Shown piece after piece: positions 7,969 to 41,132 of a stretch of DNA of 58,134 nt (positions within the stretch are counted from its first letter, which is position 1; the number at the start of each line of letters is the position of its first letter). Source of the DNA: an uncultured Flavobacteriales bacterium (GTDB lineage: Bacteria > Bacteroidota > Bacteroidia > Flavobacteriales_D > Parvicellaceae); NCBI GenBank assembly GCA_905480225.1, contig CAJQPO010000098.1:1-58134 (forward strand), written 5' to 3'. The notes under the pieces were generated by a model. The model saw nothing but the letters and a program-made list of their open reading frames with translations, made no database searches and had not been told where the DNA came from. A program made the translations under genes and the position numbers.

Positions 7969-10899
7969 ATGAGAAACTGCTTAATTTTAATCTTTGTCTT
8001 ATCATTCTTTGGCTGCGAATCCAATAGAAATGAGGATAACAGTGCCGTTAATCCTATTTTAAAATCTCCTTTTGACTTGGTTAACACTTTTATCGGTACA
8101 GGTGGCCATGGTCATACATTTCCGGGTGCAACCGCACCACATGGTATGGTTCAACTGAGTCCGGATACGCGCCTAGAAGGATGGGACGGCTGTGGAGGGT
8201 ATCACTACACCGACTCGATTATCTTCGGATTCAGTCACACCCATCTGAGTGGTACCGGAATCCCGGATTACGGAGACGTCCTACTCACACCCTTTACGGG
8301 TGATAAAATTAACCTTGAAGATGCCATTGAGCGGATTACAGCACCAAGTTATTTTGATAAGTCTACAGAAAAAGCGCATCCAGGATACTACAGCGTATTT
8401 CTTGAAAATCATGACTTAGCAGTAGAGCTCTCTACCACCGAAAGAACGGGAATGCATCGATATGTAAATTTATCAGAAGACGAACTTCATGTATTAATCG
8501 ACCTCAGGCATAGAGATAAACTAAGAGGGTACGAAATTGACTTTGTTTCTGATCGTGTTATTCGTGGAAAAAGAATTTCACAGGCATGGGCAAATGAACA
8601 ACATGTTTATTTCTATATGGAATTCTCAGCACCTTTCCATGTTACACCATTTTCAAATAACGAGTCAGTAGATTCCATCAGAAAGCAGTTTGCTCAGCTA
8701 TCATTCGGAGCTTTAGACTCCCTTTTAGTGAAAGTGGGAATATCTGCCGTTGATATTGCAGGAGCCCAACAAAATTTAGAGATTGAAAATTCGAATTGGA
8801 ATTTCGAAAAAATTCGGGAGGAAATGAAAAACAAATGGGAATCTGCTCTTAGTAAAATTGAAATTGAAGGAGGAACAGAGGAACAGCGTACTATCTTCTA
8901 TAGTGCACTATACCACGCGATGATTGTTCCCAACTTATTTTCTGATCAGGATGGGAGATACCGAGGAGTCGACATGAAGATTCATCAAGATTCTTCGGAC
9001 CTGACCTATACAATCTTCTCTCTTTGGGACACGTTCCGGTCTGCCCATCCACTCTACACTCTCATTGATCAAACGAGAACTAATTCTTACATCAATACAT
9101 TTCTAAAACATTATGATCAAGGTGGTAAACTACCGATGTGGGAACTATCGGCTAATTATACCGGTTGCATGATTGGATATCATGCAGTACCCGTAATAGC
9201 CGATGCACACATAAAAGGAATTACAGGTTGGGATATAAATAAAGCCTTCGAAGCCATGGTCAGTGCAGCAAATACAGATCATCTTGGCATTACTAATCAC
9301 ATTCAACAAGGTTATATTTCCATGGGAAATGAACCAGAATCAGTGTCTAAGTTATTAGAATATTGCTACGATGATTGGTGCATAGGAAGTATGGCGGAAA
9401 GAATTAGTGATCAACGAGCGCATGAATTTTACAACCGTTCTCTTCATTACAAAAACATATTTGACCCAGAAACAGGATTTATGCGAGGTCGAAATAACGG
9501 TATGTTTCAGTTTCCTTTTGATCCATCTGAAGTTAATTTTTGTTTCACTGAAGCTAACAGTTGGCAATACAGCATGTTTGTTCCTCAAGACATTTCAGGC
9601 ATGATTCAACTTTATGGTGGACCAGACACTTTTGAGGCCAAGTTAGATGAATTATTCAGCACAGCATCCAATGTTAGTGGAAGGCACCAAGTAGATATTA
9701 CGGGATTGATTGGTCAATATGCACATGGAAACGAACCAAGTCACCACATGGCGTATTTATACAATTATATTGGAAAACCTTGGAAAACAGCTGAAAAAGT
9801 TGAACAGATCATGCGTGAATTATACACGAGTAATCCAGATGGCTATTGCGGCAACGAAGATTGTGGTCAAATGTCTGCATGGTATGTTTTAAGTGCTCTT
9901 GGCATTTACGCGGTAACCCCTGGTACTGATTATTATACCATCGGGCATCCAATTTTTGATTCGGCAACCATTCATCTAGAAAATGGCAATGACTTCACCA
10001 TTTCTGCTGCCCGCGAAAGCAACCGTTCCTTTGGAGTAAAATCGTGCTTTTTAAATGGCATGAAATACAATAAATCATTTATTAATCATTTCGACATCAT
10101 GAAAGGTGGAGAACTTCATTTTGAACTGACAGATAATAAACAAAAAGAATTCGGAACTCAAGTCGGGAATATTCCCATAACATCGGTTCAAAATAACGCT
10201 ATTCTGCCGGTCCCGTATTTTGTAGCGGAAAACTACTCATTCGAAGACAGTCTTCTTATTGAAGTAAAATCTCCATTGAACAAAAAGATGAATTTTATAG
10301 TTAACATCAATGGCAAAACTCAACAATACGATGGGCCGTTTTGGCTAAAAGAAACTTCTCTCATCGAAGCTAGAATTATCAATGAACGAGATCAAGAGAG
10401 CCTTCCAGCCATAGGGACTTTCAAGAAAAGAGATAAAAACATGACCATCATTGATTTATCTGCCTATGCCAATCAATATGCAGGTGGTGGAAAACAAGCA
10501 CTGGTAGACGGCATCGATGGGGGATTTGATTACAGAACTGGATTTTGGCAAGGTGTGCAGGGTACTGATTATTTCATTACTATCGACAGAGGCAGACAAA
10601 GACCCATTAATCAAGTTACAATAGGCTGTTTTCAAGACATCAAGTCCTGGATATGGTTTCCAAAAGAAATTGAAATATATACTTCAAATGACAACATAAA
10701 TTTTACACTTTCCACTACAATCACTAACGATTTCAGCAGAGAGTCATTCGGTAATTTCAAACATGATTTCGAAACATCTTTAAAAGGAAACGCGAGATAC
10801 ATTAAAATTAATGCTGTCTATCCAGGAGATTGCCCTCAATGGCATCTTGGAGCAGGCGGGAAAGCATGGATTTTTATGGATGAGGTTACAATTGATTAG
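7969..10899 (+). CDS. GH92 alpha-mannosidase lipoprotein with C-terminal F5/8-type domain
   Basis: A 976-residue exo-acting enzyme that releases mannose from N-glycans. It starts at ATG 7969 with a lipoprotein signal ending FFGC, so it is likely anchored to the outer membrane. The GH92 core spans about residues 35-760. Visible family motifs are VNTFIGTGGHGHTFPGA, TAPHGMVQLSPDT, GNEPSHHMAYLYN and CGNEDCGQMSAWYVLSALG; the conserved Glu residues of the last two are the expected acid/metal site. Residues about 830-970 look like a discoidin/F5/8-type carbohydrate-binding domain. The larger frame begins at a TTG five codons earlier, which would break up the signal peptide. It follows the permease, forming a hydrolyse-and-import pair. 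Confidence 0.95.
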   Translation: MRNCLILIFVLSFFGCESNRNEDNSAVNPILKSPFDLVNTFIGTGGHGHTFPGATAPHGMVQLSPDTRLEGWDGCGGYHYTDSIIFGFSHTHLSGTGIPDYGDVLLTPFTGDKINLEDAIERITAPSYFDKSTEKAHPGYYSVFLENHDLAVELSTTERTGMHRYVNLSEDELHVLIDLRHRDKLRGYEIDFVSDRVIRGKRISQAWANEQHVYFYMEFSAPFHVTPFSNNESVDSIRKQFAQLSFGALDSLLVKVGISAVDIAGAQQNLEIENSNWNFEKIREEMKNKWESALSKIEIEGGTEEQRTIFYSALYHAMIVPNLFSDQDGRYRGVDMKIHQDSSDLTYTIFSLWDTFRSAHPLYTLIDQTRTNSYINTFLKHYDQGGKLPMWELSANYTGCMIGYHAVPVIADAHIKGITGWDINKAFEAMVSAANTDHLGITNHIQQGYISMGNEPESVSKLLEYCYDDWCIGSMAERISDQRAHEFYNRSLHYKNIFDPETGFMRGRNNGMFQFPFDPSEVNFCFTEANSWQYSMFVPQDISGMIQLYGGPDTFEAKLDELFSTASNVSGRHQVDITGLIGQYAHGNEPSHHMAYLYNYIGKPWKTAEKVEQIMRELYTSNPDGYCGNEDCGQMSAWYVLSALGIYAVTPGTDYYTIGHPIFDSATIHLENGNDFTISAARESNRSFGVKSCFLNGMKYNKSFINHFDIMKGGELHFELTDNKQKEFGTQVGNIPITSVQNNAILPVPYFVAENYSFEDSLLIEVKSPLNKKMNFIVNINGKTQQYDGPFWLKETSLIEARIINERDQESLPAIGTFKKRDKNMTIIDLSAYANQYAGGGKQALVDGIDGGFDYRTGFWQGVQGTDYFITIDRGRQRPINQVTIGCFQDIKSWIWFPKEIEIYTSNDNINFTLSTTITNDFSRESFGNFKHDFETSLKGNARYIKINAVYPGDCPQWHLGAGGKAWIFMDEVTID

Positions 10900-10906
10900 A
10901 TGACGA

Positions 10907-11911
10907 CTACCACTCTTTCATGTACTTCGCGTCTATCATTTCATTTCCCGACGTTGTAGCATGTGCATAATTGAATCCTGCATATACTGAATAGCCCCCT
11001 GATTGCCCGTATTTATCTAATGCCAGAAAGCCAACCTGTAAATTAGTCAGGTCATCGTGTTTCCTAATGATTCTATGAACCGCTTCTTTACAAGCTTCTT
11101 CTGGAGTTGCACCACCACGCATAAGTTCAACAACAATAGCACTACCGGCAATACGGATAACTGCCTCGCCAACCCCGGTTGCGCATGCTGCTCCGACTTC
11201 TCCATCAACAAACAACCCTGATCCAATGATTGGAGAATCTCCTACTCTGCCGTGTAATTTATATGCCATGCCACTTGTAGTGCACGCACCAGCAAGCTGA
11301 CCATCCTTGTCTATCCCAAGCATACCAATCGTATCGTGATTTTCACTATTAATTTGCGGGTTGTAATTACTTTGGAGTTTCCACTTCTCCCATGCTAACC
11401 TTGATTCTTCCGTCAATAAATTCGATTCTTCAAATCCTTTTTCAATAGCAAATTCCAATGCCCCTTTTCCTGAAAGCATTACGTGTGGTGTTTCCTCCAT
11501 TACCTTTCGAGCAACAGAAATAGGGTTTTCAATATTTTGCAAAAAACTAACAGCCCCACACTGGGATTTATGATTCATAATGCAAGCGTCCAATGTCACA
11601 TTTCCGTCTCTATCAGGAAGACCACCGAGCCCGACGCTCTGGTTGTTGGCGTCCGACTCTGTAATGCGCACACCGGCTTCAACCGCATCTAAAATTGTTC
11701 CACCTTGACCCAGCTTTTCCATTGCCATCCGATTAGCCGCAATTCCATGATTCCATGTAGATACGATAACCGGAAATTTTTGAATTGATTGACCTGGCAA
11801 CAAACTCGTTGAGGCAATTTGCTCGTTTGCAGAACTTTCAGCACATCCAAGTAAAGCTGTACCGGCCACACCAATACTTGCTGTCTTTATGAAGTCACGT
11901 CTAGTCTTCAT
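10907..11911 (-). CDS. N4-(beta-N-acetylglucosaminyl)-L-asparaginase (glycosylasparaginase)
   Basis: A 334-residue Ntn-hydrolase that cleaves the GlcNAc-Asn bond left after N-glycan and protein degradation. The N-terminus has a twin-arginine-like signal (MKTRRDFIKTASIG), matching export of folded enzyme; a Cys in ALLGC could also be a lipobox. The autocleavage site is HDTIG, with Thr194 as the nucleophile of the mature beta chain. GRVGDSPIIGSG and GAACATGVGE are the substrate-binding loops. Its ATG lies 11 bases inside the wzc 3' end, so the two are probably one transcript. Convergent with the GH92 gene, 8 bases apart. Confidence 0.94.
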   Translation of the reverse strand: MKTRRDFIKTASIGVAGTALLGCAESSANEQIASTSLLPGQSIQKFPVIVSTWNHGIAANRMAMEKLGQGGTILDAVEAGVRITESDANNQSVGLGGLPDRDGNVTLDACIMNHKSQCGAVSFLQNIENPISVARKVMEETPHVMLSGKGALEFAIEKGFEESNLLTEESRLAWEKWKLQSNYNPQINSENHDTIGMLGIDKDGQLAGACTTSGMAYKLHGRVGDSPIIGSGLFVDGEVGAACATGVGEAVIRIAGSAIVVELMRGGATPEEACKEAVHRIIRKHDDLTNLQVGFLALDKYGQSGGYSVYAGFNYAHATTSGNEMIDAKYMKEW

Positions 11912-14291
11912 CTATGTAACCTTCTCCATAACCGGCTCCGTAGCCGTAGCCATAACCGTAACCGTATCCATAGCCATAACCTCCTCCGTACCTACTTCCA
12001 TAAGCACTCCATTTCTTTACTTTGATACTATTTAGAACAAGCCCGTAACTAGAAACTCCACTTTTAGAAATAATTTCCTCTAAAAACTCTACCCCTTGTC
12101 TTTTCGCCATATTCGTATGCATGACAAAAATCCCGACATCCACTTTTTCTAAGAAAACCATCGCATCACTGATTAATCCAATTGGTGGTGTATCAACAAT
12201 TACGAAGTCATAATTATCTCTTCCAAATTGAATGAGTTGCGCTAATTTTTCATTTAAAATTAACTCTGATGGATTCGGTGGAACTGGGCCAGATAAAATT
12301 ACATCCAAATCGATATCTGGGATTTGAACAATAATGTCTTCAATCTTCAGTTTTCCAATGAGAAATGACGAAGCACCAATTTCATTAGACAAATTAAAAG
12401 AATTGTGAATTTTGGGTTTATGCATATCCAAATCTATTAGCAAAACCTTTTTATCTGTTTTGGCATGCACGGCAGCAATATTAGATGATAAAAACGTTTT
12501 TCCCTCGCCTGGATGCACTGAAGACACTAAAACAACTCGAGTTTCTTTATCCGGATTTAAAAAGGCCAAATTCGTCCGAAGATTCCTGAAAGCTTCTGTT
12601 ATCTGCGCTTTTGGACGCGCGTGTATAACCAATTGTTGTGTTTCAATTTCTTTATAATGTGGGATTCCTCCCAAAACTGCCATGTTGGTAATACTTTTTA
12701 AATCTTGTACTTTTTCAATCGTATCAAAATAGAGGTACCTCAAAAAAGTAATAATCCCAGCAATCAGGAAACCTGCAAAAATGAAAATGTAGTATATACG
12801 CTCCTTGTTTGGTCCAACCTTACCTATAGATCTTGCCTTTTCAATAATTTTCATTTGTGGAGCAATTCCAGCCTTGGCAATTTGCGTGTTAGCCTGCTTC
12901 TCTAATAAAAAAACATATAATTTTTCATTCACTTGATTCTCACGAGCAATAGAAAGCATATCTCGTTCCCGTCGTGGCACCCTTCTCATTAATGCCGCAT
13001 ACTGCTCAGTTTGAACAGTTACTTCATTAATCTTTTGCTTGATGGCAACTCGTGTGTCCTCAATGTACAATAGAATGTCTTTTTTCATTGTGCTGATAGT
13101 ACTGTCCAACTGCTGCATTCCTGCATGCTGAAATCTGATATCAAATTGGGCCCTGTTTTTTTGAATTTGTTTCGTATACAGCTCCTGCAGACTTTGTTCT
13201 AAAAAATTATCTTTTTCCAACATGTAAAAACTTGGAGGAATCAAATTATGATCCTTCGTGTTCTTCATGTAATTCTCAAGGTTATTGATCGATTGTAACT
13301 GTAATTGAAACTTTCTTCGTTGACCGTCAAAACTTACCCATTGACTAAAAAACTTTTCAGACTCTTTGCCCAAATCTAGTATGGTAGAATCCTTACGATA
13401 AACTTCAAGCTCGTTCTCAATAGTATCCAGTCGGGATTTAAGTGTATCAATTTGATTTCCGATGTGATAAAGGGTTCGCTCATTCAATAAACTGTCGCTC
13501 CGTTTTGAATAATTAATATAAACATGAGACAAAGTATCTAGAAACAACTTAGCTCGAACGGCTATTTGGTCTTCCAACCTAATCGATAAAATAGATGTAA
13601 AATCCAAATTATCAATAGACATTGAGCTTCTAATCTTATTCACTAAAAAAGATTCTGAATGAACAATAAATCGGTATTTAATCTGCTTTAACCTACTCTC
13701 CGACTTTTCATTCAGTTCAGCTCTCCTATTCGTTTTGATAATGTATTCATTTGTATATTCTTTCTCGCCAAATTTGTGCAAACGCGAAAATTTAGACCCA
13801 TTTTTTTCAAAATCTAATTTATAGGTATCCATATCAACAATCGAAAATCGTATGGATTGTTCGTAAAGACTTGAATTGAGTAGTTCCATATCAATTTTAA
13901 ACGGCATGGAATTATACAATTCAGTAGTTTTAAGTCGCCCTTCAATGTAATAGGAGATTTTAAAATCCACTTTTGACAATGCTCTTTGGACAAGATCATA
14001 GGAAGACAATACTCGCTTTTGGTTACTGATATCGCCATATACCGCTAAGTATCCAATATTTTTATATATCCGATCCTGATAATTGTAAGTCTCATTATTT
14101 CGCAATAATATTTGAGTCTCAGCAGCATACACTTCAGTCATTCTGTGTGTATAAAAAAATGCGAGGCTCGCCAAAGCCAACGGTGCTAAAATAAAATAGT
14201 ACCAGTTCTTGAAGAAGATTTTATAAATCGATTTCAAATCTTCGACGTTTATAATTGGTAAATTCTTTTTAGTCTTTATTGGTTCAGTCAT
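11901..14291 (-). CDS. Wzc-type polysaccharide co-polymerase/tyrosine autokinase
   Basis: A 796-residue inner-membrane protein that controls export of surface polysaccharide. A Wzz domain with a first membrane helix (WYYFILAPLALASLAFF) is followed by a long periplasmic coiled-coil region and a second helix (IYYIFIFAGFLIAGIITFL). The cytoplasmic BY-kinase has Walker A (VHPGEGKT), Walker A' (VLLIDLDMHKP) and Walker B (FVIVDTPP). The tail has 11 Tyr in its last 34 residues, mostly as Tyr-Gly dipeptides, the usual autophosphorylation cluster. The frame extends to a TTG at 14327, but the promoter box at 14312-14319 lies inside that extension. ATG 14291 is therefore the start. Confidence 0.93.
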   Translation of the reverse strand: MTEPIKTKKNLPIINVEDLKSIYKIFFKNWYYFILAPLALASLAFFYTHRMTEVYAAETQILLRNNETYNYQDRIYKNIGYLAVYGDISNQKRVLSSYDLVQRALSKVDFKISYYIEGRLKTTELYNSMPFKIDMELLNSSLYEQSIRFSIVDMDTYKLDFEKNGSKFSRLHKFGEKEYTNEYIIKTNRRAELNEKSESRLKQIKYRFIVHSESFLVNKIRSSMSIDNLDFTSILSIRLEDQIAVRAKLFLDTLSHVYINYSKRSDSLLNERTLYHIGNQIDTLKSRLDTIENELEVYRKDSTILDLGKESEKFFSQWVSFDGQRRKFQLQLQSINNLENYMKNTKDHNLIPPSFYMLEKDNFLEQSLQELYTKQIQKNRAQFDIRFQHAGMQQLDSTISTMKKDILLYIEDTRVAIKQKINEVTVQTEQYAALMRRVPRRERDMLSIARENQVNEKLYVFLLEKQANTQIAKAGIAPQMKIIEKARSIGKVGPNKERIYYIFIFAGFLIAGIITFLRYLYFDTIEKVQDLKSITNMAVLGGIPHYKEIETQQLVIHARPKAQITEAFRNLRTNLAFLNPDKETRVVLVSSVHPGEGKTFLSSNIAAVHAKTDKKVLLIDLDMHKPKIHNSFNLSNEIGASSFLIGKLKIEDIIVQIPDIDLDVILSGPVPPNPSELILNEKLAQLIQFGRDNYDFVIVDTPPIGLISDAMVFLEKVDVGIFVMHTNMAKRQGVEFLEEIISKSGVSSYGLVLNSIKVKKWSAYGSRYGGGYGYGYGYGYGYGYGAGYGEGYIDED

Positions 14292-14311
14292 GAGATTGCA
14301 GTCCTTGTATG

Positions 14312-14341
14312 CAAATATAAGAGGCAATATGACATTGCAAA
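14312..14341 (-). promoter_or_regulatory. Promoter of wzc
   Basis: The -7 box TATATTTG (14319-14312) and the -33 box TTTG (14341-14338) are separated by 18 bases. Both match the Bacteroidota consensus. The predicted transcript starts near 14306, 15 bases before the ATG at 14291, and so excludes the upstream TTG start. Confidence 0.7.
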
Positions 14342-14982: not shown

Positions 14983-15552
14983 ATGAAAAGTTTTCTTAAA
15001 AATAGAGTTGTTGTATTCTTATCATTAGCAATTCTATTGTTTACTATTTGGCATTTCAGCTACTATTACCTAATTAATCCTCACACGGGCATTGACAAGG
15101 CCATTTCCTTGAACTTAGCAGAAATCTCAAATCAACTGCTGTGCTGGATGGGGTATGATAGCGTTGTTGACTATTATCCAGCGGAAGAATACATCATAGT
15201 TAGAATGCAAGACTCGTGGTTGCCTGGTGTTCGAATTGGAGATCCATGTAATGGTTTAAATCTATTTGGTCTATTTGCTGTAGTACTAATTGCGTTTCCT
15301 ACTTCATTCAAAAGAAAATACAGAATTAATCTACACAAATTGTGGTACATACCATTAGGAATACTGCTCATTCATATCGTTAATGTAATTCGTGTTGCTG
15401 TTTTGGCAATTATTGCAAGCTATAATTACGAAGCGCTCAATTTTAACCATGATGTCACGTTTAAAGTTATTACTTATAGTTTTATATTCTTATTATGGTA
15501 CCTATGGATTAAGCAATATTCTGGATTCAATAAAATTGAAACTAAAGAATGA
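14983..15552 (+). CDS. Exosortase/archaeosortase family protein (probably the XrtX type)
   Basis: A 189-residue polytopic membrane protein with about five helices. The three catalytic residues of the family are visible in order: Cys89 in GDPCNGLN, Arg137 in NVIRV, and His156 in NFNHD. Exosortases are transpeptidase-like enzymes that cut C-terminal sorting signals at the membrane and pass the protein to the cell surface or to a lipid or glycan. It lies between a PID-CTERM protein and a small membrane protein. I recall the XrtX type having such neighbours, so that subtype is likely but unproven. Its stop overlaps the next gene's ATG in an ATGA. Confidence 0.88.
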   Translation: MKSFLKNRVVVFLSLAILLFTIWHFSYYYLINPHTGIDKAISLNLAEISNQLLCWMGYDSVVDYYPAEEYIIVRMQDSWLPGVRIGDPCNGLNLFGLFAVVLIAFPTSFKRKYRINLHKLWYIPLGILLIHIVNVIRVAVLAIIASYNYEALNFNHDVTFKVITYSFIFLLWYLWIKQYSGFNKIETKE

Positions 15553-33974: not shown

Positions 33975-34069
33975 GACACTTTAGTGAACCGAAGATAAAA
34001 AGCTTTTTAAAACTTACTTAATGAAATAAATAAAAATATGAGTGAGCGAAATTTAAGGCACAAAAATAA

Positions 34070-34163
34070 GGCAAGCTACTCACATCGCACCGCTACAACC
34101 GTTTACCCTTGCTATGTTCCCATCCTGGGGGATTCAACAGGAGCTAGTCGTGTGAGACTTGCC
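34070..34163 (-). ncRNA. ffs: Signal recognition particle RNA (small bacterial type)
   Basis: A 94-base RNA on the minus strand. The ends pair (GGCAAG with CTTGCC), and the apical S-domain contains CCCAGGATGGGAACATAGCA. This has the GGAA tetraloop on an ATG/CAT stem and the asymmetric loop that Ffh binds, matching Bacteroidota SRP RNA. It guides nascent membrane and secreted proteins to the membrane. The -7 box TATCTTTG lies six bases upstream of the mature 5' end. Confidence 0.88.
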
Positions 34164-34169
34164 TCAGTG

Positions 34170-34177
34170 CAAAGATA
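34170..34177 (-). promoter_or_regulatory. -7 box of the SRP RNA gene
   Basis: TATCTTTG on the minus strand is an exact TAnnTTTG match. It ends six bases before the predicted 5' end at 34163, the normal distance to a start site. An ATTG lies 22 bases further upstream as a weak -33 element. Confidence 0.75.
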
Positions 34178-34341: not shown

Positions 34342-36312
34342 CTATGCATGTGCTAGTGGCAAACGATAAAGAATTTTTCGGAAATTTCGTACAATAAACC
34401 CATCACCTTTTCTAGTAAACTCTCGTAATCGCTTCATTTCCTCATCACCCAATTTTAATATATCACTGAAGCTTGACAAGCTAAGATCATATTTCAGATT
34501 TAGATAATTTTGAATAATCTCTTGTTCTGCTCTGGAAAACGAGTTTAAACGATCGACTATTTTCTCTGATATTTTGCGAGATGCTAAAGCACAAGTCAAC
34601 AGATGACACTCCACAGTAATTCTAGAATCAGGAACTAAAATTCCATTTGTTTTTTTACTGGAATTTAAAACTAAATTCGGATCAATATATTTCACGCCGT
34701 TCTCTATAAATTGAGTACGAAGTTCAATGGTCATGGTATTCTGATTTAGCAAATTCAAAACAACCTGAGTACCATTCCTTTTCTTAATCATATCAACCTT
34801 ATTAACATACGGGTGATCGTTCAAAAAATGTATCGTCTTTGCTTGATTTTCAGCATTAATCAAAACTTCAACTCTTTCTATTGTACCAGTACTCTCTTCA
34901 TTTTGGTGCAAAAACGTATGGCGATAATTACTCAGGAAATGATTTAAATCAAAATAAATCGCAACGCGCTCATCTACCGTTTGTACGGTTAACTCAGCTA
35001 ATGCTTCTTTCCAAATACTAATTGATTTCAGCTGGTTATCTGTTATTTCACTTTGAAACGAAATCAGACCCAAGTTTTGAGAAATCGTACTTAATAAATA
35101 GTGTTTCAAATAGAAATTAACATCGATAGCCCATTTCTCCACCAAATCAATCAATCCGCTATTTTTAAGTTCAGAGTCAATTTTTTTCTTGATCGAAGTC
35201 CAATCTTGATTTTTAACTAAACCTTCATTTTGAAAAACAAAATGAAAAAAATCGAATAAAATTACATTCATGCTCGCTGAATGAGAAAAATTAAACAAAT
35301 ACAATTTGTCTTTTGCGACTCCACTCGTCCATGGCGTTAAATCGCCGTAGCAGAAGGAAAAAAGTGTTCTTGATTGCTTTAACTCTTCATGTAATCGAAT
35401 CAGAGAATCACTAAAATATTTAAAGTAGGGTATATTATCTGATTTATACGCGAGTAACAATTCAATATTATGCTTGACAGTTAAAGACATTGGCGTCTCA
35501 TTGAACTTATATTGTTTAATTGTTTTATCAATGATTTCAGTAACGAACCGGCCATGTTCTAACGAAAAGTTATCCGATGCAATTACGGGATGATTTCCTA
35601 TCGAAATATTAGCCGTTTTAGAATACTTTTCAATTCGAGGCATTATAATGGAATTGAATCCCTCTTCTCTCCAAACATCCGCCATTAATAACTGATTATG
35701 AAGTAAATTTTTTGTGTAACCATTACGACTAAAATTTACAAAACAATCCTCCGAAGCAATTTTATAATATACCGTAGGTGAAGCACCGTACTCGTGCGAA
35801 CCACTAGAATACGCATAGCTTTTCCCGACATGTTTTAAATGTGGATTACCTTGTAAATCCTTTTTCCAAAACACATGACAAGAACCATGTATAAACAATC
35901 GGTCAAGCTTCAAGAAATTGAATAATTGGTACTTAGCAAAACGTAATTTATCAGCCCGCGTATTCCTTTGATACAGTCGTGAGAAATTAAGTGTCGATTT
36001 CTTGAAAATCCATTTTACGTAATCGTTTTCATTACCTAAAATAGAAAGCGTCGTTCTACTAAAATTACTGAGTTTTATTCTACACGTAAAATCAAGAACA
36101 ACGTCATAGGTAGCCTGCACATCTGCATTATACTCGGTTTCTTTACCACTCATTATGAGTAAAACCTTTAACCCATCACTAATGGGTAAAGTGTCTCTAA
36201 GTGCTTCGTCATTAATCAAAATGACTGCTGGATCTGATACATGAACAATCTTCTTGGCGGGAAGAATTGTGGATAGCCACAAGTTAATGTCAGAATTTCG
36301 GAATTTAATCAT
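34342..36312 (-). CDS. Large protein with a degenerate APH-fold kinase domain (pseudokinase)
   Basis: A 656-residue protein without signal peptide or membrane helices. Residues about 215-395 follow the aminoglycoside-phosphotransferase fold. At the catalytic loop, where active relatives read HGDxTPWN, this protein reads YGDLTPWT. Where the metal-binding Asp-Trp is expected, it has LYLFNFSHS. The base Asp is kept but the His, Asn and metal Asp are lost, so phosphotransfer is unlikely. The C-terminal part (about 470-640) resembles the module of polysaccharide-related nucleotidyltransferase or kinase proteins (IELRTQFIENGVKYIDPNLVL, NGILVPDSRITVE). It follows the phosphorelay genes on the same strand, 182 bases downstream. 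A non-catalytic binding role in surface-glycan synthesis or signalling is a guess. Confidence 0.55.
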   Translation of the reverse strand: MIKFRNSDINLWLSTILPAKKIVHVSDPAVILINDEALRDTLPISDGLKVLLIMSGKETEYNADVQATYDVVLDFTCRIKLSNFSRTTLSILGNENDYVKWIFKKSTLNFSRLYQRNTRADKLRFAKYQLFNFLKLDRLFIHGSCHVFWKKDLQGNPHLKHVGKSYAYSSGSHEYGASPTVYYKIASEDCFVNFSRNGYTKNLLHNQLLMADVWREEGFNSIIMPRIEKYSKTANISIGNHPVIASDNFSLEHGRFVTEIIDKTIKQYKFNETPMSLTVKHNIELLLAYKSDNIPYFKYFSDSLIRLHEELKQSRTLFSFCYGDLTPWTSGVAKDKLYLFNFSHSASMNVILFDFFHFVFQNEGLVKNQDWTSIKKKIDSELKNSGLIDLVEKWAIDVNFYLKHYLLSTISQNLGLISFQSEITDNQLKSISIWKEALAELTVQTVDERVAIYFDLNHFLSNYRHTFLHQNEESTGTIERVEVLINAENQAKTIHFLNDHPYVNKVDMIKKRNGTQVVLNLLNQNTMTIELRTQFIENGVKYIDPNLVLNSSKKTNGILVPDSRITVECHLLTCALASRKISEKIVDRLNSFSRAEQEIIQNYLNLKYDLSLSSFSDILKLGDEEMKRLREFTRKGDGFIVRNFRKILYRLPLAHA

Positions 36313-36494
36313 GGTTTAATCGTTTCGGATAGCAAGGCCTAATTCATGCCATCGACATAAACACCTGAAAAACAGCAAGATGATATATTCTCATTATGCG
36401 ACTTTTTCCGCTAAACGGAATACTATTCCCATTTTGAGATAAAAACTACGCGAAAATTACATGAAATATTACAAGGAACGAATTACCAAATAAA

Positions 36495-36866
36495 TTACTT
36501 AATGGAGGATACAACCAATTCATTGATTGCCTCTAATGCGTCTTCAGAAAATACAACACGCCTAATCGGTCCACTAGAGACTTCACCTTTATGATGGGCG
36601 CAACTATTAGCTGGAGAAAAATGAAAAACAGGAACATCCATTTCAAAATTATTAATCCGCTCTAAAAACAACCTATAGAGGTCTTGCTTTTGGGAATAAT
36701 ATTCATCTAGAATGACAATATCTGGACACATGTCCATGGTGGCATCAAATGATTTTGGCGAGCTATCAAAATTCTTGAAAATGACCTTCTTCAGATCAAA
36801 ATAAGCGTTCCAAAATGAATCATCTTTCACTTCAGAGCTAATAATAGCCATTTTAGTACGTTTCAC
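36495..36866 (-). CDS. Single-domain receiver-like protein (degenerate)
   Basis: A 123-residue protein with the fold order of a CheY-like receiver. Asp54 in DIVILDEYY sits at the phosphoacceptor position. The acidic pair near the N-terminus is poorly placed, and the conserved Lys-Pro near the end is missing (VFSEDALEA instead). It starts at GTG 36866, or ATG 36851. A TAATTTTG box lies 24 bases upstream. It follows the Hpt gene, so it may accept phosphate from it, or be a non-phosphorylated adaptor. Confidence 0.6.
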   Translation of the reverse strand: MKRTKMAIISSEVKDDSFWNAYFDLKKVIFKNFDSSPKSFDATMDMCPDIVILDEYYSQKQDLYRLFLERINNFEMDVPVFHFSPANSCAHHKGEVSSGPIRRVVFSEDALEAINELVVSSIK

Positions 36867-36978: not shown

Positions 36979-37308
36979 CTATTCCTGGGACAAATCCGCC
37001 TCAATCTGATCCACAGAAGCACGCAAATCGGCAGCAAATTGCTCCACAGACGACACCTCATTAACATCACTCATTGTCTCCAACTTTCTAACTCCCTCAC
37101 TTAAGGCCGGAGCAACAGTATCTACAGATGGCTTAATCTTATGAGCTGTTCGATTAATTGCAATTATGTCAGCAGAAGTCATGGCCTTTTCCATATCAAC
37201 TATCGCATCTCGACAGGAGTTCACAAAAGTTTCGAGCATCAATTTAATAAAGGAGGTATCTCCTTCCGCCATAGCCTCTAAACCACTTTTAGTATATAAT
37301 TTTCGCAT
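36979..37308 (-). CDS. Histidine phosphotransfer (Hpt) protein
   Basis: A 109-residue four-helix protein. The phosphorylated His56 lies in AHKIKPS, the classic HKxKP motif. It should carry phosphate from the hybrid kinase's receiver (Asp621) to a response regulator. It is 37 bases downstream of the kinase gene on the same strand, so it is likely the dedicated relay partner. Confidence 0.88.
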   Translation of the reverse strand: MRKLYTKSGLEAMAEGDTSFIKLMLETFVNSCRDAIVDMEKAMTSADIIAINRTAHKIKPSVDTVAPALSEGVRKLETMSDVNEVSSVEQFAADLRASVDQIEADLSQE

Positions 37309-37345: not shown

Positions 37346-39415
37346 TCACTTACATAAGTTCGCAGAAATAACTTCATACAACTGATTGGGTGAATACGGC
37401 TTACTCAAATAACCTTGCATTCCCGCATCAAGACATTTCTGACCATCTCCTTTAATTGCATTAGCAGTTAATGCAATGATGGGAACTGCTAATTTAAGCT
37501 CATTCCTAATCACACCAGTCGCTTCAAGACCATCCATTTCAGGCATCATGATATCCATTAACACAACCGCATATTCATTGGCCTCTAACTGAACTATAGC
37601 CTCTTTACCGTCTACCGCTTCATCAACTACAAACTTCTTCCGCTCCAAGATTGCCCGAGCCATCATTCTATTCATCTCGTTATCATCAACAAGCAGTATC
37701 TTTATACCTTCTTCAAAATCAAAATCCAGCTCCACAATCGCCTTCTTCTTCTGCTCTACTTCTATATATACTGGCAAGTTCATTGAAAGTCGGAATGTAG
37801 ACCCTTGATCCATTTTACTTTTCAATAACTCAAGCGTCCCCCCCATAGCTTCGGCTAATTGTCGTGCAATAGACAAACCTAAACCGGTACCTCCATACTT
37901 TCTTGCTGTACCAATATCAGTCTGAGAAAAACTCTTGAAAAGATCTTTTATTTTATTTTCAGCAATACCAATTCCAGTATCGGTAAAATCAATAATAAGC
38001 AGCTGACTTGCTTTATTTTCTTTAGCTACAGATATTTCAACCAATAGGCCTCCATTCTCGGTGAATTTGATAGCATTGGTGCATAAATTTAGAATTACTT
38101 GGTACAACCTAAATGGGTCTCCAAGATAACATTCAGCCATCTTGTCATCTACTTTTATGTCGAAATAAACACCTTTAGACTCAGCACTATACAAAAGTGC
38201 TGATTTGGTTTGATCAAGAATGGTTTCTATATTGAATGGAATTGAATCTACCTCAAGTTTACCCGCTTCCAATTTTGAAAAATCTAAAATATCATTAATG
38301 ATATTCAATAAATGATCCGATGATTTTTTAATTGAATCAATGTACTTCAATTGAGTCTCATCCAAAGAAGTATCTCTAAGAAGATAATTTAAACCAACAA
38401 TCCCATTCAATGGGGTACGCATCTCATGACTCATTCTTGCCAAAAATTCCTCTTTTATGGCTGCATTTTGCTCTGCTGTCAATTTTGACTCCATCAAGTC
38501 TTGCTCCATGATTTTTCTATCCGTAATATCAACATGAATACCAATTGAGCCAATAATTTCATTATCCTCATTGAAAACGGGCGTCCCCGAAACGAGAACC
38601 CAAGCATAATCACCATTCTTCTTAATTATTTTAACTTCATATACACTTGACTTACCCTCTCTTCTTTTGGCAATTTCATGCTCAAAGTCAACTTCAGAAT
38701 CACCAAATATCAGTACCTCTGAAGCGACAAGACCAATCAATTCATTCGATCCATAACCCGTCATTTCAGAAAACTTTGGATAAACCTTTGTAATCCTGTC
38801 ATCGAGATCCACCTCTAACAACCCCAGTTCTATATTTTCGATAATCTTTTGGTACTTCTCATCACTTCGAACAACGTATTCTTGTAATTTAACTTTCTCA
38901 GAAACATCTGTTATCTGAACAAGCCGAACCTTTCTAGTACCATAAGGAATAGTACATGCCTGAATGTCAACAATAATATTCTCGCCATCTTTTGTAATAT
39001 GATCCCACTCCCTCGACGCTTCAAACTCCGAATCATTAATGATGTTATCTACATCTTTTTCTAGAGAATCCCACTGATTCTTTGGATGCAAATCATGAAT
39101 TTTCAGTTTTACAAATTCACTTCTTGAATAACCATACTTTTCAATAGCCGTTTGGTTAACGTCAAGAATGCGATAAGTACTGGGATTATATATCAATAAG
39201 GCAAGCGGATTGTTGTCATACAACATTTTAAAATAATCCTCTTTCTGCTGAGTATGGTGATCTTGCGTCTGTTCATTGAGCTTCTCCAGATCAAATAAAC
39301 GTAAAGTACGCTCTTTTAAGTCTGTTGTTTTCCTTTTGAGCTTTTCTTCCAGGTCCCTTCGAGCAAGGTTTTCCTTTAAATACCGTTCCTTCCAGATATT
39401 CGCCTCATCATTCAT
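37346..39415 (-). CDS. Hybrid sensor histidine kinase (coiled coil-PAS-PAS-HisKA-HATPase-receiver)
   Basis: A 689-residue soluble kinase. A coiled coil at 1-60 is followed by two PAS domains (about 62-175 and 185-300, with DITDRKIMEQDL at the end of the second). The phosphorylated His330 is in MSHEMRTPLNG. The ATPase has the N-box LCTNAIKFTENG and G-box GTGLGLSIAR. A receiver with Asp621 (LMDIMMPEMDG) and the conserved Lys (LSKPYSP) ends the protein. No membrane helix is seen, so the signal is probably intracellular. It lies 12 bases after the sigma-54 regulator gene, giving a His-Asp-His-Asp relay order with Hpt. Confidence 0.95.
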   Translation of the reverse strand: MNDEANIWKERYLKENLARRDLEEKLKRKTTDLKERTLRLFDLEKLNEQTQDHHTQQKEDYFKMLYDNNPLALLIYNPSTYRILDVNQTAIEKYGYSRSEFVKLKIHDLHPKNQWDSLEKDVDNIINDSEFEASREWDHITKDGENIIVDIQACTIPYGTRKVRLVQITDVSEKVKLQEYVVRSDEKYQKIIENIELGLLEVDLDDRITKVYPKFSEMTGYGSNELIGLVASEVLIFGDSEVDFEHEIAKRREGKSSVYEVKIIKKNGDYAWVLVSGTPVFNEDNEIIGSIGIHVDITDRKIMEQDLMESKLTAEQNAAIKEEFLARMSHEMRTPLNGIVGLNYLLRDTSLDETQLKYIDSIKKSSDHLLNIINDILDFSKLEAGKLEVDSIPFNIETILDQTKSALLYSAESKGVYFDIKVDDKMAECYLGDPFRLYQVILNLCTNAIKFTENGGLLVEISVAKENKASQLLIIDFTDTGIGIAENKIKDLFKSFSQTDIGTARKYGGTGLGLSIARQLAEAMGGTLELLKSKMDQGSTFRLSMNLPVYIEVEQKKKAIVELDFDFEEGIKILLVDDNEMNRMMARAILERKKFVVDEAVDGKEAIVQLEANEYAVVLMDIMMPEMDGLEATGVIRNELKLAVPIIALTANAIKGDGQKCLDAGMQGYLSKPYSPNQLYEVISANLCK

Positions 39416-39427
39416 ATGTGACGAAAT

Positions 39428-40774
39428 TTAGTAAGCTGGTTGTTTTTCTTCCTTAAGCATTCTGTAAATAGTGGATTTACCAACATCCAATTTAGCAGCC
39501 ACTTTCAAGACATTATTGTCATACTGTTTTAGATAAATTTTGATTATCTGATTGTTATACTCTCTTAAAGTGAGTTCCTGATTTAGAACATCCTCAACTT
39601 CATTAGAAGAAGTTGCATGAAAATTAATTTCATCAGCCGTTATAAGACCATCCTCACAAATGGCACAAGCCAGCTCAACTAAAGCTTTCAACTCTCTAAT
39701 ATTACCCGGGAAATTATACGATAGCAGTTTATCTTGTGCATCTTGATTAAGCTCTATTTTACCCATACCGTTTAACTTACTAAAATCTGCAATAAAATGT
39801 TTAGCAAGAATTAAAATGTCTTCCTTTCGATTTCTAAGGGGAGGTAAATCAATTGGCAATCCAATCAATCGATAATATAAATCTTCTCTAAAATTTCCTT
39901 TACGAACCTCATCTAACAAATTCTTGTGGGTAGCACAAATTATCCTGATGTCTAGCTTGACGGGATTATTATCTCCAATTCTAACCAACTCCCTCTCTTG
40001 TATTACCCGTAGCAATTTTGCCTGCAGAGAAAAGTCCATCTCTCCTATTTCATCTAAAAAGATAGTACCCTTATTGGCTTCTTCAAATTTACCAATCCTT
40101 CTTGCTCCAGCACCCGTAAAAGCTCCTTTTTCATGACCAAATAATTCGCTCTCCAGCAGCTCAGAAGGAATTGCAGAAACATTCACTGCCACAAACTTTT
40201 TCTTCTTTCGATCCGAATTATAATGTATTGCCTTTGCAACCAGCTCTTTACCTGTACCTGTTTCACCGGTAACTGAGACATTTATCGCCGTTCTACAAGC
40301 TTTCTCCATCAGTTTATAAATACCCTTCAGAACAGCACTGTTTCCTTTTATATAATTTGAAAAAGCGTATTTACTAGTGACTTCATCCTCTAGTTCTTCA
40401 ATTCGTTCTTTCAGTTGACGTTTCTCCCGAATTAAGTTGATCGAATTCCAAAGACGGTCTTTCGCATCCTCATCTTTAACAATGTAATCGAAAGCCCCGT
40501 TTTTCAAAAGGCCTATTGCCGTACTTACATCTTCTTGTGCTGATACTACAACTACGTCCGCACTTGATCTTTCTGATTTTAATTTATTCAACAATACAGT
40601 ACCCTCCATATCTGGAAGACCATAATCCATCACAACAACGTCGCAACGCAATTTGTCGGCAAAAAAATCTGCGGCATTTTCATAAACTTTGGCATCAACG
40701 TCAGGATTTAGATTAACATGGTATTTAATCATTTCCGCATACCACTTATCATCCTCAATTATAGCAATATTCAT
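39428..40774 (-). CDS. Sigma-54-dependent response regulator (NtrC family)
   Basis: A 448-residue activator. The receiver (1-120) has Asp50 in VVVMDYGLP. The AAA+ domain has Walker A GETGTGKE, the sigma-54 contact loop GAFTGA and Walker B GTIFLDEIGEM. A Fis-type helix-turn-helix is near the end (VAAKLDVGKSTIYRML). The frame extends 31 residues further to 40867, but those residues are not receiver-like; MNIAIIEDD at 40774 is the start. It probably takes phosphate from the following hybrid kinase/Hpt relay. Confidence 0.95.
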   Translation of the reverse strand: MNIAIIEDDKWYAEMIKYHVNLNPDVDAKVYENAADFFADKLRCDVVVMDYGLPDMEGTVLLNKLKSERSSADVVVVSAQEDVSTAIGLLKNGAFDYIVKDEDAKDRLWNSINLIREKRQLKERIEELEDEVTSKYAFSNYIKGNSAVLKGIYKLMEKACRTAINVSVTGETGTGKELVAKAIHYNSDRKKKKFVAVNVSAIPSELLESELFGHEKGAFTGAGARRIGKFEEANKGTIFLDEIGEMDFSLQAKLLRVIQERELVRIGDNNPVKLDIRIICATHKNLLDEVRKGNFREDLYYRLIGLPIDLPPLRNRKEDILILAKHFIADFSKLNGMGKIELNQDAQDKLLSYNFPGNIRELKALVELACAICEDGLITADEINFHATSSNEVEDVLNQELTLREYNNQIIKIYLKQYDNNVLKVAAKLDVGKSTIYRMLKEEKQPAY

Positions 40775-41132
40775 ACAGGTTATATTATTGGCGTTGTCCC
40801 AATTTAGGAATAATAAACTATTAAAAAAACAAAAACAGTACCAAATTTCATAAAAATTTTGTTGCATCCCTATGAAAATAGACTATCAAAACCCAGAACC
40901 TTTATGATTTTTAGCGTAACTACCTAAAAAATAGCAACTTAATTATAAATGTCACGCTATTAATTTATTCTTCTAATAAGGCGAAAAAGCTTTCAAAAAC
41001 TTAATGTTCGGACATGTGTATATTCCTATAATGGGACGGTTCCTTTTTCGGGAATAAGAATAAAAAAAATGAGCAGAGCCTATTGCTGGTTTTGATTAAA
41101 AGAAAATAACACTTAAGGGTTATGCCTAGATT
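40775..41132. other. Intergenic region upstream of the phosphorelay operon
   Basis: About 358 bases with no gene. It holds a near-perfect 18-bp palindrome (ATAACACTTAAGGGTTAT, 41106-41123, one mismatched pair) just after the ruvX stop. A TATTCC/GGAATA inverted repeat lies around 41020-41057. No clear -7 box for the regulator gene was seen. Confidence 0.35.

Follow-up and report, generated by a model that had tools for sequence, protein, structure and literature searches.

The 58,134-nucleotide stretch of DNA analysed here (the window) carries a single-copy gene for a protein of 656 amino acids, which we read, at a probability of roughly 0.6, as a catalytically dead kinase of a polysaccharide locus that has been re-used as a regulator or scaffold under the control of a phosphorelay. 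Directly supported are the ancestry of the protein, the loss of its catalytic residues, the absence of the cognate Wzc and Wzy, the purifying selection on the gene, and the conservation of gene order and upstream elements. The window belongs to a genus of marine Flavobacteriales, of which three species were compared (G000, which contains the window; G001; G002). The change from enzyme to pseudoenzyme can be traced in this case from an active family through an intermediate (G001) to the derived form, with the pathway lost, the control circuit kept and apparent parallels in two other lineages.

The pseudoenzyme and its three-module ancestry

The gene and its parts are as follows:

34342..36312, minus strand: pseudoenzyme gene, 656 aa (open-reading-frame list, AlphaFold model, fold comparison, residue alignment)
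Residues 1-154: N-terminal region
34978..35850, minus strand: APH/choline-kinase-like fold, predicted dead, residues ~155-445 (AlphaFold model, VIA-align)
35326..35349, minus strand: catalytic loop YGDLTPWT, residues 322-329; family consensus HGDFTPWN
35290..35292, minus strand: Asn341 replacing the invariant metal-binding Asp (LYLFNF; YDWE in the relatives)
34453..34977, minus strand: nucleotidyltransferase-like second module, predicted dead, residues ~446-620, by motif; Asp triad changed to R480, E482, E530
C-terminal end: short tail after residue ~620; third (TMK-like) module absent

The protein has no significant sequence match in Pfam, NCBIfam or the PDB and is readable only through its relatives; in Pfam, PF01636 gave no match even at E <= 1, and a match to HTH_19 (E 0.012) was rejected as chance. 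The fold was recovered by structure prediction and comparison. In an AlphaFold model built with 33 relatives (mean pLDDT 86.7), residues ~155-443 are matched by choline kinase, LicA and APH structures in Foldseek (E 3e-6 to APH(2'')) and in VIA-align, with Z from 16.2 for Plasmodium falciparum choline kinase (6yxs) and 16.1 for LicA (4r7b) down to 13.5 across the chains. The kinase fold that the sequence-only reading had put at about 180 residues is thus real and larger, at ~290 residues; the frame coordinates were exact, and both motifs stand where they had been placed. The second module is nucleotidyltransferase-like as judged by motif; one active relative has a weak Pfam match to NTP_transf_5 there (E 0.04), and a sequence-profile search gave no solved-structure relative of the module. 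No remnant of the third module was seen on reading the stretch 3' of the pseudoenzyme stop. This stretch carries a small SRP RNA of the Bacteroidales type (34065-34171, minus strand; Rfam RF04183, 106.5 bits), which lies between the pseudoenzyme gene and a downstream short-chain dehydrogenase gene.

The ancestor was a protein of ~880 aa from Wzx/Wzy polysaccharide loci of Bacteroidota, in which an APH kinase, a nucleotidyltransferase-like module and a thymidylate-kinase-like module were joined. Homologues are present in 22 of 399 genomes of the order and, outside the genus, are mostly ~800-910 aa long and carry the third module. Their motifs are HGDFTPWN...YDWE, SDLDI...SIDL (nucleotidyltransferase type) and a GVDGAGKT P-loop. 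In the active relatives Pfam matched Thymidylate_kin in 31/31 and APH (PF01636) in 24/31 (E <= 0.01), and one member was found by structure comparison to fold like a thymidylate kinase in its C-terminal module (Z 19.7). Among named genomes 65 loci were found, in Flavobacteriales, Cytophagales, Chitinophagales, Saprospiraceae, Pedobacter and others, with the modules encoded as separate genes in some Saprospiraceae. The window protein is homologous to the family over the kinase and nucleotidyltransferase-like modules, at 22-24% identity across ~620 residues (E 8e-28 to the member of G009, which is of the same family as the window). In the tree the genus is a single clade (support 1.0) that branches within the active family, with Crocinitomix-type sequences as neighbours; its stem is very long. 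The earlier suggestion, made from the letters of the window, of descent from a glycan kinase is supported as far as descent from a kinase of a polysaccharide locus, by this homology and by the placement of the three-module proteins in Wzx/Wzy loci; a glycan may have been the substrate of the ancestor. A scan of viral contigs found no relative.

Some other members depart from the usual pattern. In a 634-aa member (L159/L169, in G418) the kinase residues are intact, the nucleotidyltransferase positions have changed to E, D, N and a P-loop cannot be recognised, which makes it another partial loss. Two members (L096, L107) come from records titled Hyphomicrobiales and Geobacter MAGs, and these may be contaminating contigs or transfers.

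The residue losses were scored in an alignment of 30 relatives outside the genus with the three genus species. Residues E207, H322, D324, N329, D341 and E343 are invariant in all 30 relatives, position 193 is K in 29 and R in one, and the nucleotidyltransferase Asp triad (D480, D482, D530) is kept in every one. In the window the six positions read Q/Y/D/T/N/S and the beta3 Lys at position 193 is Asn, so that the ATP-contacting Lys and its alphaC-type Glu partner are both lost and the catalytic-base Asp324 is the sole kinase motif residue left. G002 is identical to the window at the scored sites except that D530 is kept. G001 reads Q/Y/D/N/N/S with a triad of E/D/V, and has kept K193 and N329. 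The substitutions E207Q, H322Y, D341N and E343S occur in all three species and are therefore common to the whole genus, while the remaining ones are later and differ between species. The third module is still present in G001, with its P-loop replaced, and has been lost from the window and G002.

With H322, D324, N329 and D341 kept in 30 of 30 aligned relatives outside the genus, the losses are not due to chance. The alignment upholds the earlier call: the lost residues mark a pseudokinase, and nothing else can be seen to take over the metal site (N329T, D341N, E343S). It adds K193N, E207Q, E343S, the second-module Asp triad and the third module to the losses already noted. The claim of a loss confined to catalysis is right for the kinase fold and fails for the protein as a whole, in which the motif of the second module is lost and the third module is gone. 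On these residues the window protein is a predicted pseudokinase, in which those essential for phosphotransfer are lost and the fold and the selection on it are kept.

The phosphorelay locus and its upstream DNA

Upstream of the pseudoenzyme gene lie the phosphorelay genes and several candidate control elements:

36337..36351, minus strand: sigma54 -24-like element TGGCATGAATTAGGC, ~40 bp before the pseudoenzyme start codon; non-canonical -12 half
36389-36401, minus strand: weaker palindrome TCGCATAATGAGA, read directly from the sequence
36407-36419, minus strand: weaker palindrome TCCGTTTAGCGGA, read directly from the sequence
36427..36439, minus strand: palindromic box TCTCAAAATGGGA, one mismatch from TCCCANNNTGGGA; candidate enhancer site
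36495..36866, minus strand: 123-aa protein resembling a small receiver, without a significant match in Pfam; related to the REC-like gene of intact loci
36979..37308, minus strand: Hpt domain protein (PF01627, E 9e-8)
37346..39415, minus strand: hybrid histidine kinase, PAS-PAS-HisKA-HATPase-REC by domain content
39428..40867, minus strand: NtrC-type sigma54-activating response regulator (receiver, AAA+, weak Fis-type HTH)
41024-41036 and 41041-41053, minus strand: palindromic boxes TCCCATTATAGGA and TCCCGAAAAAGGA, 5' of the response regulator

By domain content the phosphorelay is complete, as had been claimed, with sigma54 regulator, hybrid kinase and Hpt. The pseudoenzyme gene lies downstream of it, with the small receiver-like gene between it and Hpt. 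The 123-aa product of this small gene seems to lack the paired acidic residues and the conserved Lys that receivers usually have and is possibly a pseudo-receiver; its relative in intact loci sits between the Hpt and response regulator genes.

An intact locus is seen in G009, where the order is sigma54 regulator, a 181-aa gene, hybrid kinase, Hpt, REC-like gene and response regulator, followed by Poly_export/SLBB (Wza), a Wzz/GNVR tyrosine-kinase-type protein (Wzc), a flippase-type protein (Wzx), a glycosyltransferase, a Wzy_C polymerase, the three-module protein and further glycosyltransferases. The window has the order sigma54 regulator, hybrid kinase, Hpt, REC-like gene and pseudoenzyme, that is, the same order minus the block from response regulator to polymerase, and minus the extra 181-aa gene that G009 has between regulator and kinase. 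The cognate Wzy had no match in any of the three genus species, and searches there for the cognate Wzc gave only full-length paralogues of 23-25% identity at other loci. All three species have kept the dead enzyme together with the sigma54 regulator, the hybrid kinase and Hpt. An assembly artefact was rejected, since G002, an independent assembly, has the same order, and G001 has it too except for the REC-like gene. The co-occurrence with a phosphorelay is more than proximity, as gene order and upstream DNA elements are common to intact loci. Elsewhere in the window, both at ~20 kb from the phosphorelay, are a Wzc-type protein (11901-14327, minus strand), which is distinct from the cognate Wzc that went with the lost locus, and a gene of the exosortase family (14983-15552, plus strand).

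The upstream box of the pseudoenzyme gene is TCTCAAAATGGGA in the window and G002, and the exact TCCCATTTTGGGA in G001; TGGCAC stands at the -24-like element in G001 and G002. A palindrome and TGGCAY, the latter ~40 bp before the start, thus precede the gene in all three species, and the same pair is found ahead of many active three-module genes. TGGCAY within 60 bp of the start was counted in 20 of 33 active relatives and in 27 of 427 control ORFs (p 5e-14), and the palindrome lies within 300 bp upstream of 11 of 35 genes (nine active relatives, G001 and G002), against a mean of 0.23 and a maximum of 2 in shuffled sequences. The canonical TGGCAC-N5-TTGC was not found upstream of the pseudoenzyme gene, where only the -24 half is convincing and the -12 half is poor in the genus. 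The palindromes may be enhancer sites of the sigma54 regulator of the window; a candidate sigma54 enhancer site for such polysaccharide loci and the three-module protein are further products of this analysis. The boxes ahead of the regulator gene itself suggest autoregulation. The strict box recurs in the genus ahead of a 183-aa protein. In the window assembly the contigs C88 and C92 (L128 2986, L129 2944) end near-identically around the same palindrome, a split or strain-variant repeat in the assembly.

Parallel dead relatives and known systems

Two further members of the family are apparently dead:

L076 (uncultured Flavobacteriales), 9320-11959, plus strand: dead three-module protein, in the order sigma54 regulator, hybrid kinase/Hpt, response regulator, dead three-module protein
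L091 (Catalimonadaceae), 9233-10633, plus strand: dead APH, in the order kinase, response regulator, dead APH

In L076 the Lys is changed to Leu, the Glu to Gly, HGD to HFN and the third nucleotidyltransferase Asp to Asn, and the P-loop is altered; both metal ligands are kept, and the protein is dead only through the loss of Lys, Glu and base Asp. An active member (L067) is present in the same MAG. In L091, HGD has become HNN and the metal Asp is Asn. No sigma54 regulator was seen within 10 kb of L091, and no Wz genes within the ~10 kb flanks of either. Among members whose flanks were adequate, Wz genes accompany 0 of 3 dead and 16 of 18 active ones (Fisher p 0.0075, a hand tally on a small sample). 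In two further samples of ~395 genomes (the class, with L076, and the phylum, with L091), the other homologues with a readable kinase module keep H, D, N and D of the kinase motif.

L076, L091 and the genus each find their closest matches among active members and not in another dead lineage, which suggests independent losses and speaks against a single clade of all dead members. In the FastTree tree L076 and L091 are paired (0.96), so that two or three loss events are counted; the pairing may reflect long-branch attraction or one shared event. A recurrent and so far undescribed signalling arrangement in Bacteroidota, in which enzymes of phosphorelay-controlled polysaccharide loci repeatedly lose catalysis and are kept beside the phosphorelay as dedicated non-catalytic regulators or sensors of glycan status even when the locus is gone, can be proposed only tentatively, and we consider it somewhat doubtful.

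Pseudokinases of the APH-type fold, control by sigma54 and kinases at polysaccharide loci with a two-part upstream motif, and the control of an initiating sugar transferase by a response regulator are already known. The window protein shares its fold over ~290 residues with the APH/choline-kinase superfamily (PF01636; LicA, choline kinase, aminoglycoside phosphotransferases) and is linked to it through relatives that match PF01636. It differs in the replacement of Lys, Glu, His, Asn and metal Asp, in having no Pfam match of its own, and in its extra N-terminal region and nucleotidyltransferase-like module. The paper on bacterial spore kinases (YtaA/CotI, CotS, YutH, YsxE) describes a choline/aminoglycoside-kinase-type fold, a genomic link to glycosyltransferases, and several classes that independently became pseudokinases and are still conserved (PMC2860764). 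Unlike the window protein, those kinases belong to the spore coat of Firmicutes, and the passages considered give them no phosphorelay or Wzx/Wzy link. In the PrsK/PrsR system of PEP-CTERM/exopolysaccharide loci, an activator site, ~60 bp and then a sigma54 element are found upstream (PMC1569441); like the window system, it has a paired upstream motif and, close to genes for polysaccharide synthesis, a histidine kinase with a sigma54 regulator. The window has a hybrid kinase with Hpt and a different upstream site, and its regulator falls short of the PrsR cut-off of TIGR02915 (335.1 against 502.6 bits). The literature searched, with subscription journals mostly outside the search, yielded no description of the three-module family, of its dead descendants or of the palindrome in Bacteroidota polysaccharide loci, and none of a polysaccharide phosphorelay in Bacteroidota that carries the TCCCANNNTGGGA palindrome.

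What the dead protein may do

The gene might be a relic whose purpose was lost with the polysaccharide locus and which is disappearing, catalytic residues first. The missing polysaccharide block would fit such decay, as would the state of the third module in the three species and the uneven substitutions at K193, N329, D480, D482 and D530. Selection contradicts it strongly. Between G000 and G002, dN/dS is 0.076 for the whole gene and 0.038 for the kinase fold (95% bootstrap 0.019-0.067), the most constrained part of the protein, which is as low as the neighbouring histidine kinase (0.040); the downstream dehydrogenase stands at 0.109. The reading frame is intact in all three species, and the upstream elements are conserved. 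The gene is not decaying and is under strong purifying selection, and we regard a relic as highly improbable. Continued enzyme activity, by an unorthodox catalysis that uses the retained Asp324 and holds the nucleotide in another way, as in some other proteins whose kinase motifs are degraded, would account for the invariance of Asp324 and of the loop residues TPW, and for the 21 of 57 columns (>=90% conserved in active relatives) that are kept in all three species. Against it, the window has replaced Lys, alphaC Glu, metal Asn, metal Asp and the DWE Glu, and G001 and the window differ at two catalytic sites, so no single new active site is conserved between them; we think this quite improbable. 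The protein could also serve another polysaccharide pathway as a substrate- or nucleotide-binding subunit with no regulatory role; the Wzc homologue at 11901-14327 would be one possible partner. The genome retains other genes of the Wzc and Wzy types, and the box is also found ahead of an initiating sugar transferase, which lends this idea some credit. It is nevertheless unlikely, as in all three species the gene has remained beside the phosphorelay rather than beside other polysaccharide loci, and the parallel dead relatives likewise adjoin phosphorelay genes.

Strong purifying selection and the further dead relatives beside phosphorelay genes argue instead for a regulatory role. On the reading of a dead enzyme turned regulator or scaffold, a three-module protein of a Wzx/Wzy surface-polysaccharide locus stood under a hybrid kinase, Hpt and a sigma54 regulator. 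In the genus ancestor the genes for export, flippase and polymerase disappeared, and the kinase and nucleotidyltransferase modules lost their catalytic residues. Strong selection retained the kinase fold beside the phosphorelay genes, under a palindrome and sigma54-type promoter of the same type. From domain content and cis elements, a signal would pass through the hybrid kinase and Hpt to the sigma54 regulator, which would switch on the pseudoenzyme gene and other box-bearing genes. The pseudoenzyme, presumably unable to hold Mg-ATP normally, would work by binding, as a scaffold or feedback sensor, and would act on surface-glycan initiation or residual surface-glycan functions, or on the phosphorelay itself. 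Points that weigh against this are the poor -12 half, the one-mismatch box in the window, the metal ligands kept in L076, K193 and N329 in G001, the lack of a visible sigma54 regulator within 10 kb of L091, the pairing of L076 with L091 in the tree, and a comparison of only three genomes of the genus. The retained phosphorelay and palindrome make the regulatory idea testable, and, if true, it would show bacteria turning biosynthetic enzymes into signalling parts.

A candidate target is a gene pair for a single-domain response regulator and a Bac_transf initiating sugar transferase. In Myxococcus xanthus, the single-domain response regulator EpsW activates the initiating sugar transferase EpsZ (PMC12802240). 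The genus is alike in having the response regulator gene directly ahead of the Bac_transf gene, the two sharing one upstream box; the resemblance, known here from gene arrangement, concerns this pair and not the pseudoenzyme gene. The strict box precedes the pair in all three species, at L126 1241-2774 (minus strand) and in the regions of C1:129166 in G001 and C214:6942 in G002.
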